DNA of 25,060 bases, from the IMG/VR virus record IMGVR_UViG_3300030328_002471, positions 1-25,060 of that record; one strand, written 5' to 3'. Below are positions 9,571 to 17,495 of this stretch, in pieces. The translations under genes and the position numbers were made by a program. The notes beneath the pieces were generated by a model, which did not search any database, had not been told where the DNA came from, and worked only from the letters and a program-made list of their open reading frames with translations. The DNA comes from a virus. Positions within the stretch are counted from its first letter, which is position 1. Each line of letters begins with the position of its first letter.

Positions 9571-12500
9571 TTAGCTTAATTCTACCCAGATACTATCTGG
9601 ATTATACCATATTAATCCACTTGAGCTATTTAAACAGTAGCCCATTATTCTCACTATCTCTCCAGCTGTTGTTGGAATAGTGCTTGTTATTTGTCCAGCA
9701 GTAGGAGATAAATATAAAACATCTCCAATAGTGCCAGGATCATGATTTAAAGTAACCATTCCTTTTAATAATATTCCATCAGTTACTCCAGTTCCTAATG
9801 CTATTCCTAATAATCCAGTTGATGTACCAACAGCGCTTGCATCAGCTGGAGTCCAAGTATTATCACTTTTAAAAGTATATAATGTTCCCTTTGTTAATGT
9901 ATCAGCAGTTCCAAAATATACTATATCTCTATTTTGATATTGCTGGATTAAGTTTTTAAAATCTATACTTATTAATGCTCCTGGAGCTATTTCATTTTCT
10001 ATAGAGAATGCATCAACACTTAATGAAGTATCTCCGCTTGTTTGATTTGCATTTAATGTTAATAAGTGAACATTTCCAGAATTACTATCTACTAAACTTA
10101 CTCTATCATTTATTGATAATAATGTTTCTCCAATATCTTCTATTGGTACAGATGTAATTCTTTCAGTTATTATTATACCGCCTATATTTAATGTAGTAGA
10201 TGGCTCTACAGAACTAACATCTGTAACTATATCTCCAGAAGCCATATTAGTCATTGTACCGCTATTACTATTTGTACTTGCATCTGGTATTGTAGGATAG
10301 GTAGCATCATCTCCCATTCGCCACCATCCTATTAATGAAGATGTACTACTATAGCTACCTACATTACTTAATAAATCAGTTGGATTTCCTAAATTCCTAA
10401 TAGAAGATATTGCAGTAGCTGATAATGCACTATCCCATAATGCTACCTCATCTATATTTCCAAGCCAATAAGATGTAGAAGATACTGTATAACGGCCTAT
10501 ATGAACTGTATCTATTGTACCAGCCCAAGTTCCGCTCATTGTACCAGTAGCTACTTCAGTTCCATCTAAATAACCTTTTAAATCGTTATTATCCCAAGTC
10601 ATAGCTATATGATGCCAATTGCCATCTCCCTCAATAGAAGTTGAATAGTCAATAACATTATTTGTACCACCTCTTTTAATTTGCCACTTTAAATCGCTAT
10701 CATCATTCTTATACCATAATCTAATAAAATTATTAGCATCTACTGAAGCCATAAAAATAGTACAACTTACTCCAATTGTATCTAATTTAACCCAAGCTGA
10801 TACACTACCAGTAGTTGTATTTATAGTTGTATCTACACCACTTATATCTACATAATCATCAGAGCCATCAAAATCTAAACTTTTAGTATTAGTAAGATTA
10901 CTTTTATTTGCTAATAGTTGTATAGTTGTAGATGTTTCTGGTATTATATTTTGATTATAATCTCCATCTGCCATTACAGTAATTCCAGAAGTTGCTCCCA
11001 GTTTTACATATACACCGCCAGAAGTATATTCAGATACTGCAAATCTTACATTATATTGTTTACCTAATGTTACAGTAGATGCAGTACTTAAAGCTCCAGC
11101 TCCAGTTGTTACACTGGCAAATTTTAACTTACTATCAGCTATTGTTACATTAGTTCCTTTAGTCCAATCACTATCAGTTGTAAATTGCCCATTAGTTAAA
11201 ATATCAGTTGCAGCTAAATAAGAGCTTGTAGTTGTTATTGCTAATGGATTGGCTAATTTTTGAGAGATATTTCCACTACCGCCACCAATCACATTCATAG
11301 GTAGGGCAGTTGGCTCTGGAGTATTTTTACCATATATATCAGTAGAAGTAGTTGTTATAGTTGGAGTTCCTACTCCTATATTAAACCATTCTCCATCCCA
11401 AGTATCATTACCAGTTGTAAATGTACCCCTTAAAAACACATAGCTTTTGCCATCTACATCATTTATTCTACCAACTGGATTTATATATTTTGGGTATGTT
11501 CCACTTGAATCTACGCTATATTTATTATGGGTGCTTAATGTAATTCTTGCATTCATTTTATATACATGAAAGCTCTGCCCATCTAAATACTGCTTTAAGA
11601 GTAATTTAGTTAAAGATGAATTTCCAGATGTAGTATTAACTCCCCATTCTCCAACTGCTGCTGTAAATACCCAGCTACTTCCATTCCAAACTTGAATACT
11701 TGAAGAATCAGAATCCATTGGAGCATCTCCCCATCTCATCTGACCTAAATTTAATTGAGAGGTATCTGTTTCATTAGTTGAGCTTACTATTCTTTGCCCA
11801 AGTGGGCCTACGCTTGATGAAGTATTTAATAAAAATAATTGGCCTAAAAAAGGATTTCCATTAGTTGTAGTCCAAGATTGAGTACTAACCAGTCCTAAAC
11901 CAGGAGAGCTTATCACTGTATTAGAAGTGGTAGATACATTTGGATTTAATGCATTTACCCACTTTACACCATGAGTAGTATAAGATGATCCATTTGCTAC
12001 AGAAAGCGGGAATCCAGTCTGCGGATCTTTCCAAACTAATACCGGATCTTTTGGGCTACCATTAGAAAAATAGGATGCTAATTTTATAGTTATTTGCCAG
12101 CTACCAGTAACCCCAGTTAATTTTGGTAATGTACCATTAGTTCCTTTTGGAGTTAATGTTTGCACTCCAGTATTAGCAGCAGTTAAAGTATTAGTTTCAA
12201 ATACTACAAAATCATTATTATTAGCGTTATAAGCAGCAGTAGTCCAAGCATAGTTTCCACTTCCATTATATTTAAGATTATAAGTTGTAGCTGCTGGAGT
12301 ACCAGTTGCTCCACTTGGAATAGTAGCAGTAACTCTACATTTAAACTCTACTTTATAGCTTAAAAAATTATTACTAAAACTTGCTACGCTTGTATCTTGT
12401 TGAAATATTAATGGTACAGTTAAAAATAAATTTTGGCCAGCTGATGGATCATCCATCTGCTCCTGTACAACTTGCACAACTGTAGTACCATCTGCACTAC

Positions 12501-13563
12501 TGCTCTCTGGGAATCCTCTATAAAAGTTTTGTGTTTCCGCACTAATATAATCAGCAGTAACTCTTTTTAGTATTGGATAATTCTGATAAGTTGTACCAGA
12601 TAATTTTTGGATTCCCTTTCCAGGAGTTGTAACATTTTCTATATTTTGATTATATCTTGTCCACCAAGCTGTACCTAAATAATCTCTACTTGCTGTATGT
12701 ACTGGCGGATCGGCTAAACTATAATCTCTTGTATTTATATTTGTTGGATTTGCTAAAGTACCAGATTCTGCTGTATTATATCCATCTAATTGAATAAAAT
12801 AAAATGAATGTTTCCAATAAACAACTCGCATTCCTAATGCAATACATAATGTTTTTAAAACTTCATAGCAATTAGATACAGTACTATTCCCAGCTCCATC
12901 TTGTTGCTCAAACATTCCCATCTTTATTTGAGTTTGGTATAAAGGCCCAAAAGATGTTGCAGCAGATTGATGCCTCTGATTATACCAATTTACAGCTGCT
13001 CTAATATTAGCATTTTGTGAGATTCCTTGAGTTGTGCCAGGTGGAGTTACTTTGTTAAGGATTTCTCCAATCCAATAAGTAATTCTTTCATGACCTTTAT
13101 GCTTATAAGTAATGCTATTAACTTCATCACTCCAAAAGCCAATATCTTTTAATCTTGCTAATCCATCTGTTGCAGTAATCTTAACTTCATATGGATAATC
13201 TACATCTTGCTGCGCTCCTAAATCCATTAATAGATAGCCAGCCCAGACTGGCCTATAGTTAGCTCCATTACCTAAATATAATGCTACAACTACATCTCCC
13301 TCATTATAATCTTCTATTAAGTTTTTTATAAATATTTTATCTGTTGCATCTTTTACCATAAATGGAATATCCATTTTAGATGCAATGATTGGAGAATATT
13401 TCTCCTCTCCTTCCATATCGTATTGGATAGAGCATCCGCCAACTCCTAAATCTGCTTCCTTAACTCCAACACCAGAAGGCCAATTTTGATCCCTTATTTC
13501 AAGATAGTATTGCCTTCCATTAAGTGAAAAATATGTACTCTCATATCTTCTATTGTATGCCAT
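9571..13563 (-). CDS. large tail-tip protein with LamG-like lectin domain
   Basis: A 1330-residue protein directly after the tape measure, where distal tail and hub proteins lie. The first 300 residues (FSLNGRQYYLEIRDQNWPSG; YEVKITATDGLARLKDIGFW) look like the structural hub part. Residues about 893-1085 form a LamG/concanavalin-like module (SLDFDGSDDYVDIS, SAWVKLD, GNWHHIAMTWDNNDLKGYLDG, IDEVALWD, WWRMGDD). The C-terminal 110 residues (DGILLKGMV, GDVLYLSPTAGQIT, VRIMGYCL, WYNPDSIWVEL) match a domain often found at the ends of phage fibres. The likely role is tail tip assembly plus binding of host surface sugars. No peptidase or glycosidase motif is evident. Confidence 0.85.
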   Translation of the reverse strand: MAYNRRYESTYFSLNGRQYYLEIRDQNWPSGVGVKEADLGVGGCSIQYDMEGEEKYSPIIASKMDIPFMVKDATDKIFIKNLIEDYNEGDVVVALYLGNGANYRPVWAGYLLMDLGAQQDVDYPYEVKITATDGLARLKDIGFWSDEVNSITYKHKGHERITYWIGEILNKVTPPGTTQGISQNANIRAAVNWYNQRHQSAATSFGPLYQTQIKMGMFEQQDGAGNSTVSNCYEVLKTLCIALGMRVVYWKHSFYFIQLDGYNTAESGTLANPTNINTRDYSLADPPVHTASRDYLGTAWWTRYNQNIENVTTPGKGIQKLSGTTYQNYPILKRVTADYISAETQNFYRGFPESSSADGTTVVQVVQEQMDDPSAGQNLFLTVPLIFQQDTSVASFSNNFLSYKVEFKCRVTATIPSGATGTPAATTYNLKYNGSGNYAWTTAAYNANNNDFVVFETNTLTAANTGVQTLTPKGTNGTLPKLTGVTGSWQITIKLASYFSNGSPKDPVLVWKDPQTGFPLSVANGSSYTTHGVKWVNALNPNVSTTSNTVISSPGLGLVSTQSWTTTNGNPFLGQLFLLNTSSSVGPLGQRIVSSTNETDTSQLNLGQMRWGDAPMDSDSSSIQVWNGSSWVFTAAVGEWGVNTTSGNSSLTKLLLKQYLDGQSFHVYKMNARITLSTHNKYSVDSSGTYPKYINPVGRINDVDGKSYVFLRGTFTTGNDTWDGEWFNIGVGTPTITTTSTDIYGKNTPEPTALPMNVIGGGSGNISQKLANPLAITTTSSYLAATDILTNGQFTTDSDWTKGTNVTIADSKLKFASVTTGAGALSTASTVTLGKQYNVRFAVSEYTSGGVYVKLGATSGITVMADGDYNQNIIPETSTTIQLLANKSNLTNTKSLDFDGSDDYVDISGVDTTINTTTGSVSAWVKLDTIGVSCTIFMASVDANNFIRLWYKNDDSDLKWQIKRGGTNNVIDYSTSIEGDGNWHHIAMTWDNNDLKGYLDGTEVATGTMSGTWAGTIDTVHIGRYTVSSTSYWLGNIDEVALWDSALSATAISSIRNLGNPTDLLSNVGSYSSTSSLIGWWRMGDDATYPTIPDASTNSNSGTMTNMASGDIVTDVSSVEPSTTLNIGGIIITERITSVPIEDIGETLLSINDRVSLVDSNSGNVHLLTLNANQTSGDTSLSVDAFSIENEIAPGALISIDFKNLIQQYQNRDIVYFGTADTLTKGTLYTFKSDNTWTPADASAVGTSTGLLGIALGTGVTDGILLKGMVTLNHDPGTIGDVLYLSPTAGQITSTIPTTAGEIVRIMGYCLNSSSGLIWYNPDSIWVELS

Positions 13564-15350
13564 TAGATAAATCTATTTCTGCTTACGCCAGCCTTTTCAT
13601 TACTTAAATATATATCATTTCCTACTAATCTGCCAGTTACTCTCATATCTCCACCCATATAATTCTTTAATTTATCAAGAGGTGCTATTACTTCTGGATT
13701 GCTTATACTTGTACCGCTTCCCTCTCCTACTAATGCCATTGTAGGGCCAGTAGCTAAACCGCCACTTGCAAGACCTAATACGCTATCTTTTGCTTTACCA
13801 AAAGCATCTATAAATTTAGTTCCTTTCCCCCCAAGCATTAGATTTATAGTTGTTAATACTGCTAATTTAATTAACATAGCTTTTATAGCTTCTTTTATAT
13901 TCTTTAAAAAAGATTTGAAAAATCCTTCTTGTGAATGTGCAGCATTCATCATAGCTCTTTCCATTGTAAAGCCAAATTTTTCATAAGCAGCATTCATTCT
14001 ATCAGTTAAAGTAATAGTTTTAGTAATTTCATTATTAAAAAAATCTAAACTTTCTAATCCACCCTCATCTCTCTTTTGAAAAGGTTGCAATGGCCCTATA
14101 AAATCAGCTGGAAGAGTTTGGCTTTTTTTGTTAGGAAATAGCCAATCTGGAGCTGCTTTAGATACTTTATATAAATTAGTAAGAAAAGTATCCAGAGTTT
14201 TATTATCAGTTTGTAAGGTTTTATCTAAAATTTCAAATTCTTTTGTTAAATCATCTACACTCTTTCCAGCTTTTACCCCACTATCTTCCATATCATCTGT
14301 GTTGCCAAGCCATTTATCAAAAGCTCCCATTGCATCAGCTATTGCTACTCCTAAAGCTGCGATCCCAGTTGCTAATAAAAGCCAAGGATTCTTTCTTATC
14401 ATAGTTAGCATTTGGAGTCCAAGCCATTTAATGGCTTTACCTATTTTATTAATCCAAGGTAATAGGTAACCAAAAGCTAAAATTACTTTAGCAACACCAA
14501 TAGTTATTGGCCCTAATGCAGCTGCAAAAGCTAACCATTTGACTGTATTTACTTTAGCTTTATCACTTAAATTATCAAATTTTGTAGCTAATCTATCTAT
14601 AAATTTAGCAAACGAAATTAAAGATGGTAAAATTATTTTACCAATATCTTCAGTTAAATCCATTAAAGTATTTTGTAAAGCCTGAATTGGCCCTAATCCT
14701 GCCTCTCTGGCTGCTTTTGCACTACCCCCATATTGCTTTTCTAATTCATTTAAAATAATAGTTTGAGCATCTGCCAGCCTATTTGTTTCTACTAAAGATT
14801 TAACTAATTCTTTTTGCTCGGTAGAAAACTGTATACCAGCTCTACTTAATGCAGATAAATTAGCTACTGGATCATTTAAAGCTTTACCAAGCATAATAGA
14901 TGCACTTTTTAAATCTCCCTGCAATCGTGTAGCTAAATCTAAAGCCATTTTTTGCGTTCTCTCAAATTGCTCTCCAGCTATGTTTGTAAAGGTTAAAAGT
15001 TGAGCTGTAGCTCCTTGCAAAATATCTTCATCTCCAAATAAAGTAGTTTTTTGTAAATCAGAAGCCATTTTTTGCAGCTCCTTTGATGTTTTGCCTACTT
15101 GGTTTCCTGTAGATTTTAATCCAGCTTCAACTTGAGCTATAGCTTTTTGTTGTTTATCAAAACTTCTTACACTAACTGCACCTAAAGCTAAAATTGGTAG
15201 AGTTAAACTGGTAGATAAAGTTTTACCAGTTTGCTCCATTTTTTTACCAAACTTTCCTATGCTCTTCTGGGCTTTTTTCATTGCCCTATCAAATCCCCTT
15301 AAATCAGCTCCAAATACTATGTTAAGTAATCCTATACTTTTATTTGCCAT
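13563..15350 (-). CDS. tape measure protein
   Basis: A 595-residue tail length protein. The N-terminus (VFGADLRGFDRAMKKAQKSIGKFGKKMEQTG) is the standard opening of siphovirus tape measures. It is followed by helical repeats and three hydrophobic segments near residues 48-60, 270-300 and 320-343 that may reach the host membrane on injection. The C-terminus (GGLATGPTMALVGEGSG...NPEVIAPLDKL) is also typical. At the usual 0.15 nm per residue this predicts a tail of about 90 nm, an estimate only. It overlaps the chaperone gene upstream and the tail-tip gene downstream (TAATG at 13563). Confidence 0.93.
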   Translation of the reverse strand: MANKSIGLLNIVFGADLRGFDRAMKKAQKSIGKFGKKMEQTGKTLSTSLTLPILALGAVSVRSFDKQQKAIAQVEAGLKSTGNQVGKTSKELQKMASDLQKTTLFGDEDILQGATAQLLTFTNIAGEQFERTQKMALDLATRLQGDLKSASIMLGKALNDPVANLSALSRAGIQFSTEQKELVKSLVETNRLADAQTIILNELEKQYGGSAKAAREAGLGPIQALQNTLMDLTEDIGKIILPSLISFAKFIDRLATKFDNLSDKAKVNTVKWLAFAAALGPITIGVAKVILAFGYLLPWINKIGKAIKWLGLQMLTMIRKNPWLLLATGIAALGVAIADAMGAFDKWLGNTDDMEDSGVKAGKSVDDLTKEFEILDKTLQTDNKTLDTFLTNLYKVSKAAPDWLFPNKKSQTLPADFIGPLQPFQKRDEGGLESLDFFNNEITKTITLTDRMNAAYEKFGFTMERAMMNAAHSQEGFFKSFLKNIKEAIKAMLIKLAVLTTINLMLGGKGTKFIDAFGKAKDSVLGLASGGLATGPTMALVGEGSGTSISNPEVIAPLDKLKNYMGGDMRVTGRLVGNDIYLSNEKAGVSRNRFI

Positions 15351-15681
15351 GCTCTTCTAACTTTTTAATATATTCAGCTTTCGCTTTTAATTTTTCAAAA
15401 TCCACCTCATCTTTTTTATCCCAATCAAATTTAATCAAGTCAGTAAGTTTCAATTTTTTACCTTTTGCTATTTGGATATTTAATAAGTAGCAAGTTTGCC
15501 ATCTTGTTCTCTCCCATTCATTCCTCTCTCTCATCTGCTCTAATTCAAAGAAGCCATTTAACTTATTAAAAAAATGCTTTGGAATCATATCATAAAAGTC
15601 CGCTACACTCATTCCTAATTGCCCTAAAGCAATTCCCTCAAGTTTATCCCAAGTTAGCTTTTCGCTTTCTTGGGCTTCGGC
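15340..15681 (-). CDS. tail assembly chaperone -1 frame extension (gpT-like)
   Basis: This frame is open from the slippery site to 15340. It reads KLTWDKLEGIALGQLG before the first Met codon (15612), then MSVADFYDMIPKHFFNKLNGFFE. The pattern W..L...A.G.LG.S..DF..M.P..F is typical of the second half of phage tail chaperones. The coding signal begins well before the ATG, so the segment is best explained as the T part of a G-T fusion of about 216 residues (103 from the first frame plus 113). A separate product from 15612 (90 residues) is possible but I see no good start context. It overlaps the tape measure gene by 11 bases. Confidence 0.85.
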   Translation of the reverse strand, partial: AEAQESEKLTWDKLEGIALGQLGMSVADFYDMIPKHFFNKLNGFFELEQMRERNEWERTRWQTCYLLNIQIAKGKKLKLTDLIKFDWDKKDEVDFEKLKAKAEYIKKLEEHGK

Positions 15682-15687
15682 TTTTTT
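15648..15687 (-). promoter_or_regulatory. programmed -1 ribosomal frameshift signal
   Basis: On the minus strand the zero-frame codons GAA AAA AAG form the slippery heptamer A AAA AAG at 15687-15681, the same as in E. coli dnaX. After a six-base spacer (CCGAAG), bases 15674-15648 fold into a hairpin: CCCAAG pairs with CTTGGG and AGC with GCT, separated by a symmetric AA/AA internal loop, with loop GAAAA. The zero-frame TAA lies in the hairpin. After slippage the -1 frame continues without a stop into the gpT-like region. Confidence 0.9.
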
Positions 15688-15989
15688 TCATTATTTCCCC
15701 CCATCATATCGGTTAGCACTTCCATACATCTTGAGATGCCTTCCATATCTCCATCCATCTTATCAGCTAAATCATCTACTGATAATTCGCATTTTTGCTT
15801 TGCTGCTCTGTATCCATCCTCAATACCGCAATGTATTAAAATAAGAGCATCATTTAAACTCATATCCGCTCCTAATTTATTTAATTCATTTAAGGTAGTT
15901 CCAGTTTTCATTGAGTATTTACGCAATGCATTAAATCCAAATTTAATAGGATATTTTTCTCCCCCTAATTTTACAAAAGTATATTCCAT
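15654..15989 (-). CDS. tail assembly chaperone, short form (gpG-like)
   Basis: A 111-residue product starting at the ATG at 15989. A TTG three codons upstream lies within the inverted repeat and is less likely to be used. The domain (YTFVKLGGEKYPIKFGFNALRKYSMKTG, then LILIHCGIEDGYRA) resembles phage tail assembly chaperones, and it sits exactly where lambda G / HK97 gp14 lies, between tail tube and tape measure. The C-terminus is a short charged tail (NNEKKPKPKKAKS). A slippery heptamer near the end lets some ribosomes move to the -1 frame and make a longer fusion. Chaperones of this type bind the tape measure and tail tube protein during assembly and are absent from the virion. Confidence 0.88.
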   Translation of the reverse strand: MEYTFVKLGGEKYPIKFGFNALRKYSMKTGTTLNELNKLGADMSLNDALILIHCGIEDGYRAAKQKCELSVDDLADKMDGDMEGISRCMEVLTDMMGGNNEKKPKPKKAKS

Positions 15990-16074: not shown

Positions 16075-16530
16075 TTACGCAGTCGTTACAGTTATTCCAC
16101 CAGTTCCAGTAAAGCTCATGCTATAAGTTGCAGTATCTTCAGTTCCACCAGTAGCTGAAAATGAAGTTAAAAATGCATCTCCTTCATAAACAGTATCTCC
16201 AGTAGTTGATCCAGTATTTCCCCATTTTAGTGTAAATGCTTCTCTGGTATTAGTACCAGCTTCCAGTAAATATTTCTTTACTAAATCATCCGCACTATTA
16301 CTTAAATCAGCTCCAGATGAATTAGTCCACGCATAAGCTCCATCTAAACTTACTTCCCAATTTCTTTGGCCTTCTAAACTCTGCGCAAATCCTGCGCTCT
16401 CTTTGTTAGAGATATCTCTTGTATCCATATTAATTGTAATTGAAGCTGATTGAGCAAAAGCTACTAATATATTAGAACTATCATAAACTTTTAAATTTGT
16501 ACCATTTAATATTCCATTACCTATTGCCAT
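16075..16530 (-). CDS. major tail protein (tail tube, TP901-1-like)
   Basis: A 151-residue protein. IGNGILNGTNLKVYDSSN (about 2-20), ITINMDTRDISNKESAGFAQSLEGQRNWEVSLDGAY (about 32-67) and the beta-rich C-terminus are typical of the TP901-1-type major tail protein family (Phage_tail_2). It polymerises into the tube around the tape measure. It has an A-rich leader and is followed by a long hairpin with a T run, so it seems to be the second gene after the capsid gene that is placed for high output. Confidence 0.88.
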   Translation of the reverse strand: MAIGNGILNGTNLKVYDSSNILVAFAQSASITINMDTRDISNKESAGFAQSLEGQRNWEVSLDGAYAWTNSSGADLSNSADDLVKKYLLEAGTNTREAFTLKWGNTGSTTGDTVYEGDAFLTSFSATGGTEDTATYSMSFTGTGGITVTTA

Positions 16531-17078: not shown

Positions 17079-17495
17079 TTAATTTGATACTGGATTAATT
17101 TGTCTTAAATTAAAAGATAATGTATGAACATAAACTCCTTGCCCATCTCCCTTCATATCAAAATCTTCATCAAAGCTTGTAAATTGTATGCTTTGTACTT
17201 CTACTCCAGAAGCTGGATAAGTTCCAGATTTCCTATCCAATGCTATTCTTACCTTTTGTGCTAAATCTGCTACTTGAGAATATTTATCAGAGTAGCATAT
17301 AATTGTAAAATTATTTGTATCTAATGTACTTACTCCATCTTTTGTATCATTTGGATCAACTCCAGTTGTTGTATATATAAGAAATGGAAATGCAGTAGAT
17401 TCTCTTGCTACATTTGGAAAAATCCTTGTAGATACAATAGCTGATACATCACTATCAGTACTTAAAATATTATATATTGCGTATCCTATCTTCAT
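17079..17495 (-). CDS. DUF3168 tail completion / tail terminator protein
   Basis: A 138-residue protein starting IGYAIYNILSTDSDVSAIVSTRIFP, which is the typical opening of DUF3168 proteins, followed by FPFLIYTTTGVDP and a C-terminal VYVHTLSFNLR strand. The family includes SPP1 gp17-like tail completion proteins, which cap the tail tube next to the head. It starts one base past the stop of the gp10-like gene and fits the neck order closure, gp10-like, DUF3168. Confidence 0.85.
   Translation of the reverse strand: MKIGYAIYNILSTDSDVSAIVSTRIFPNVARESTAFPFLIYTTTGVDPNDTKDGVSTLDTNNFTIICYSDKYSQVADLAQKVRIALDRKSGTYPASGVEVQSIQFTSFDEDFDMKGDGQGVYVHTLSFNLRQINPVSN

Follow-up and report, generated by a model that had tools for sequence, protein, structure and literature searches.

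The tail gene cluster of this marine bacterial virus raises the question of how a reading frame that opens before any Met codon, here called T, comes to be translated behind a short gene, here called G. An earlier note on this DNA had proposed that a complete -1 frameshift cassette joins G and T as the two halves of a tail chaperone. We analysed the whole stretch of 25,060 nucleotides, hereafter the window, which is an IMG/VR virus record (IMGVR_UViG_3300030328_002471) with a GC content of 31.6%, together with related loci. With a probability of about 95%, the cassette serves a siphovirus tail chaperone pair, G and the fusion GT, as its -1 programmed ribosomal frameshift signal, where the slip is read from its evolutionary traces. 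The kind of signal is already known from the tail chaperone -1 frameshift family; judged by its evolutionary conservation, the one described here is a genuine case in a little-annotated family of Bacteroidota viruses.

Organisation of the junction in the window

The tail genes are found on the minus strand in siphovirus order, running from terminase, portal, capsid and connectors through the tail tube, the short gene G and the frameshift site to the tape measure and large distal genes (Table 1). The G/T pair is placed between the tail tube gene, which lies just upstream of G, and the tape measure gene, which shares 11 nt with the end of T; the same placement is observed in isolated phages. Further along the strand, a distal tail gene of 1330 aa (9571-13563, minus strand) matches the C-terminal half (residues 970-1116) of PHROG 347, a family named tail terminator whose N-terminal third is matched by the likely tail terminator at 17079-17495. 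PHROG 347 may be a chimeric profile.

Table 1. Features of the G/T junction and its flanking genes in the window.
Feature	Position	Strand	Evidence or remark
Major tail (tube) protein	16075..16530	-	phrog_1407, E 7.7e-25; Phage_tail_2, E 1.8e-9
Zero-frame gene G, tail assembly chaperone (probable)	15654..15989	-	111 aa, from ATG to TAA
Second heptamer G GGG GGA	15696..15702	-	judged not to work for a -1 shift into T
Slippery heptamer A AAA AAG, probable -1 slip site	15681..15687	-	right phase here and, as either A AAA AAG or G GGA AAG, in 66/66 distinct junctions
Spacer CCGAAG, 6 nt	15675..15680	-	length 6 in 65/66 junctions, sequence variable
Stimulatory hairpin (predicted), 27 nt	15648..15674	-	fold and compensatory changes
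Zero-frame stop TAA within the hairpin	15654..15656	-	reading of the G frame
-1 frame T segment	15340..15687	-	113 codons follow the slip; stop at 15342-15340; match to phrog_16333
GT fusion, predicted, 216 aa	15340..15989	-	103 zero-frame residues and 113 from the -1 frame
Tail length tape measure protein	13563..15350	-	phrog_27166, E 2.5e-63; TMP_2

The zero frame of G ends in GAA AAA AAG CCG AAG CCC AAG AAA GCG AAA AGC TAA. The elements which the earlier note had described, namely a heptamer in the zero frame, a six-base spacer, a 27-base hairpin and a zero-frame stop within this hairpin, were all recovered at the positions given in Table 1, and the length of 216 residues given for the fusion is correct. 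The -1 frame, also said to be open from the site, is closed by a TGA directly before the heptamer and then stays open for 115 codons. The hairpin, CCCAAG-AA-AGC-GAAAA-GCT-AA-CTTGGG, consists of an outer stem of 6 bp (15674-15669 with 15653-15648) and an inner stem of 3 bp (15666-15664 with 15658-15656). On its own it folds at -12.8 kcal/mol (z -5.8), a value that none of 200 shuffled sequences reached, and in a 61-nt context the fold reaches -13.1 kcal/mol (z -2.6).

In-frame heptamers of the form X XXY YYZ are common in the window, with 86 instances in 7771 codon positions, seven of which are A AAA AAG. The heptamer alone is therefore weak evidence, and it is its conservation together with the spacer, the hairpin and the open frame that excludes chance.

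Conservation among relatives and competing explanations

When the T and G parts were used as queries, 198 loci were obtained, which gave 66 distinct junctions with a conserved Trp in the T frame; two human-gut contigs (L119 and L120) lack this Trp and were left out. For a second locus collection (A2), the query began after the slip site, so that the heptamer was not built into the search. The earlier note had named, as evidence against a frameshift, homologues that encode T with its own conserved start and no heptamer. The relatives show the reverse: each of the 66 junctions has one of the two heptamers, A AAA AAG or G GGA AAG, in phase, and in 65 of them the T frame has no ATG, GTG or TTG before the conserved Trp. 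The spacer is 6 nt in 65 junctions, its length having been chosen in each case by the best stem pairing within a range of 3 to 12 nt, with ties assigned to 6. The zero-frame stop (TAA, TAG or TGA) lies at varying sites, 5-32 nt before the Trp.

The outer 6-bp stem is perfectly paired in 63 of the 66 junctions despite base changes, and its arms differ by lineage: CCCAAG/CTTGGG, GCCAAG/CTTGGC, GCCAAC/GTTGGC, GCCAGC/GCTGGC and CCCAGG/CCTGGG. Three of the six pairs show compensatory double changes, and pairs 1 and 6 switch between G-C and C-G in different arm combinations. Among 44 distinct rows, 99.6% of the stem cells are paired, against 84.9% in shuffles, and 29 cells have changed on both sides, against 7.5 in shuffles. 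The covariation score is 0.341 against 0.096 (0/500 shuffles) and falls to 0.055 or less when the partner arm is slid; an arrangement of the rows centred on the stem somewhat favours it, and related sequences are not independent. The other three pairs are invariant, and the Trp codon forces part of that invariance. The inner stem, whose sequence varies from lineage to lineage, was left out of the covariation count.

In the stretch from the conserved Trp to the first ATG, pS is 0.69 and pN 0.19 for the T frame, whereas the other two frames have no such excess. Ahead of the ATG the T frame encodes the conserved residues LxWxxLExIAxGQ. On this evidence the stretch before any ATG is under purifying selection and translated as T; the ribosome must therefore enter upstream of any ATG. 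These values bear directly on the possibility that G and T are separate proteins and that T starts at an internal ATG (15612) by coupling or re-initiation. An open reading frame with an ATG is present (90 aa, 15340-15612), the Met at this position is nearly invariant, and isolates are annotated as carrying two genes. Nevertheless, independent initiation at 15612 is already largely refuted by the pS and pN before the ATG and would leave the heptamer, the spacer and the covarying stem unexplained, and we regard it as very unlikely.

The exchange of A AAA AAG for G GGA AAG is relevant to another possibility, in which the fusion arises from transcriptional slippage on the run of seven A rather than from ribosomal slippage. 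A run of seven A does precede the G of the heptamer, and several distant relatives carry poly-A runs. However, a long A run is absent from those relatives that use G GGA AAG, yet their spacer and stem are kept, and slippage by RNA polymerase requires no hairpin at a fixed distance of 6 nt. Seven A are also short for efficient transcriptional slippage, and this explanation is highly improbable. Two further ideas, that the hairpin terminates transcription and that the layout arose by chance in an A-rich genome with frequent in-frame heptamers, are already refuted by the conservation and covariation across the 66 junctions, and a terminator search found no terminator-like site, the stem not being followed by a T run.

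Two in-phase heptamers near the junction, for example A AAA AAG and G GGA AAG, were observed in four relatives (L096, L138, L181 and L200), which are perhaps intermediates of heptamer exchange.

The relatives comprise marine contigs, one Flavobacteriales MAG, Cellulophaga phages and Bacteroides phages. The hosts are likely Bacteroidota, since Cellulophaga and Bacteroides phages carry the pair and one relative is found in the Flavobacteriales MAG. In Cellulophaga phages phi39:1 and phi17:1 and in Bacteroides phage F4, the pair occupies the same place as two adjacent "hypothetical protein" genes. For phi39:1, MS/MS virion evidence is recorded for most of the annotated neighbours but for neither half of the pair, an indirect hint that would fit chaperones absent from virions. 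One finding stands against the frameshift reading: the halves of phi39:1 (L116, NC_021804.1, junction near locus 2440-2460; also L202) are, as sequenced, not in a -1 relation. They are related by +1/-2 at a run of eight A, and in L202, one of the 66 junctions, the heptamer has the right phase for the T frame, whereas the long G frame is another one. In a relative of phi39:1 (L203), G and T stand in a -1 relation and the heptamer is G GGA AAG. The frame relation in phi39:1 may be a homopolymer sequencing error, or else a -2 shift.

The second heptamer and an upstream SD-like element

The earlier note had also pointed to a second heptamer, G GGG GGA, which soon meets a stop and might yield a truncated form. 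The heptamer is indeed present, and a -1 slip on it would reach a TAA (15693-15691) after one further codon, leaving T out of reach. A useful truncated form did not find support, as just 21 of the 57 junctions retaining Met-Gly-Gly at this place have G GGG GGN. The first Gly codon is GGA in 24, GGG in 21, GGC in 6 and GGT in 6 of them. Met-Gly-Gly is kept as protein while the Gly codon varies, and the heptamer is therefore not maintained as such; with its -1 frame stopping before T, it was rejected as a functional site.

The Met-Gly-Gly codons (15701-15696 in the window and the same place in relatives) also form an SD-like GGNGG about 10 nt, or about three codons, before the slippery heptamer. 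Using the element list and spacing of PMC4066793, according to which this distance is stimulatory in Escherichia coli, we found the element in 63 of the 66 junctions, against 11% at control positions in each of G and T and 15% in the window genes, counts in which the lineages are not independent. Codon usage is mildly skewed, with GGG at 37% for the first Gly (13% elsewhere) and GGT at 58% for the second (27% elsewhere). Protein-level conservation of Met-Gly-Gly could explain most of the enrichment. Bacteroidota ribosomes have been reported not to recognise SD sequences (PMC9976891), and it is improbable that the element acts on elongating Bacteroidota ribosomes although these reportedly hide their anti-SD. 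Its action might be confined to ribosomes without bS21; if true, such dependence would tie the G:GT ratio to ribosome composition. We treat the element as a lead and not as a claim.

Protein identities, known systems and implications

The assignment of the pair as a tail chaperone is backed for the G part by its fold and by weak profile matches. The window protein matches PHROG 2115, "tail protein" (E 1.3e-7), as do 37 of the 42 aligned G proteins. Among these 42, six weakly match PHROG 183, "tail chaperone protein" (phrog_183), and nine weakly match Pfam Phage_TAC_12, with a best E of 0.0078 in relatives; for the window G protein itself, Pfam gave no Phage_TAC_12 match above the family cut-off. 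The AlphaFold model of G (pLDDT 82.6) was found by Foldseek against BFVD to resemble several models named "Tail assembly chaperone protein" (best E 8.6e-6, probability 1.00), and a protein of Cellulophaga phage phi18:2 appears further down the same list. The model thus supports a fold like that of annotated tail assembly chaperones. The search of the PDB with this model gave no convincing solved structure, YqbN (3klu) appearing at E 6.3, which is chance level, and profile searches of the PDB returned chance matches only. No match to the G part was obtained by tblastn in the phage collection. The T part matches PHROG 16333, listed as of "unknown function" (E 5.3e-29), and has no match in Pfam; its structure model is of low confidence (pLDDT 53). 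The weak matches of G and T to curated chaperone families, the poor model of T and the lack of a convincing solved structure count against the frameshift reading.

The slippery heptamer of lambda is G GGA AAG, which is also used by some relatives of the window. As in lambda G/GT, the order is tail tube, G, T and tape measure, the -1 shift lies near the end of G, a stop follows soon after the slip, and the T part has no start of its own. In contrast to lambda, the window has A AAA AAG with a conserved hairpin exactly 6 nt downstream, and the proteins are not recognisably related by the searches used. In lambda, the tape measure protein is bound by both G and its frameshifted product GT (Levin 1993, Xu 2004 and 2013, reviewed in PMC5009743). 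The tail tube subunit is bound, and may be recruited, by T, and the virion retains neither G nor GT (PMC5009743). The E. coli dnaX cassette combines A AAA AAG with an upstream SD-like element and a downstream hairpin (PMC7282821). The window shares with it the heptamer, a hairpin a few bases downstream and the GGNGG at a stimulatory spacing, whereas the gene and its purpose differ and the likely hosts are reported to be blind to SD sequences (PMC9976891). A likeness is also seen with the pairs of phi39:1, phi17:1 and F4, whose T halves match PHROG 16333, several of whose G halves match PHROG 2115, and which have the same gene order; unlike in our reading, these are annotated as two separate genes with frameshifting unmentioned. 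In the literature searched, of which coverage was partial, we found no description of this frameshift in Bacteroidota phages.

The frameshift reading suggests the following mechanism. Most ribosomes would translate G (111 aa) up to the TAA within the hairpin. The hairpin, starting 6 nt downstream of the heptamer, would slow the ribosome while AAA AAG is decoded, and in some of the passes both Lys-tRNAs would re-pair one base back on AAA AAA. Translation would then go on in the -1 frame and yield the GT fusion of 216 aa. By analogy with lambda, the tape measure protein may be coated by many copies of G and few of GT, and tail polymerisation may start when the T part recruits the tail tube protein.

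This reading would give a function, that of the T part of a frameshifted tail chaperone, to PHROG 16333, a widespread family listed as unknown, and suggests that the annotation as two genes be corrected in the isolated phages of Cellulophaga and Bacteroides. The compensatory changes found when heptamer and hairpin were compared among relatives, as the earlier note had proposed, add a further aspect. That A AAA AAG and G GGA AAG replace each other while the spacer stays constant and the stem covaries constitutes a clean natural experiment on frameshift signals, and this experiment sits in a phylum whose ribosomes reportedly do not use Shine-Dalgarno pairing.
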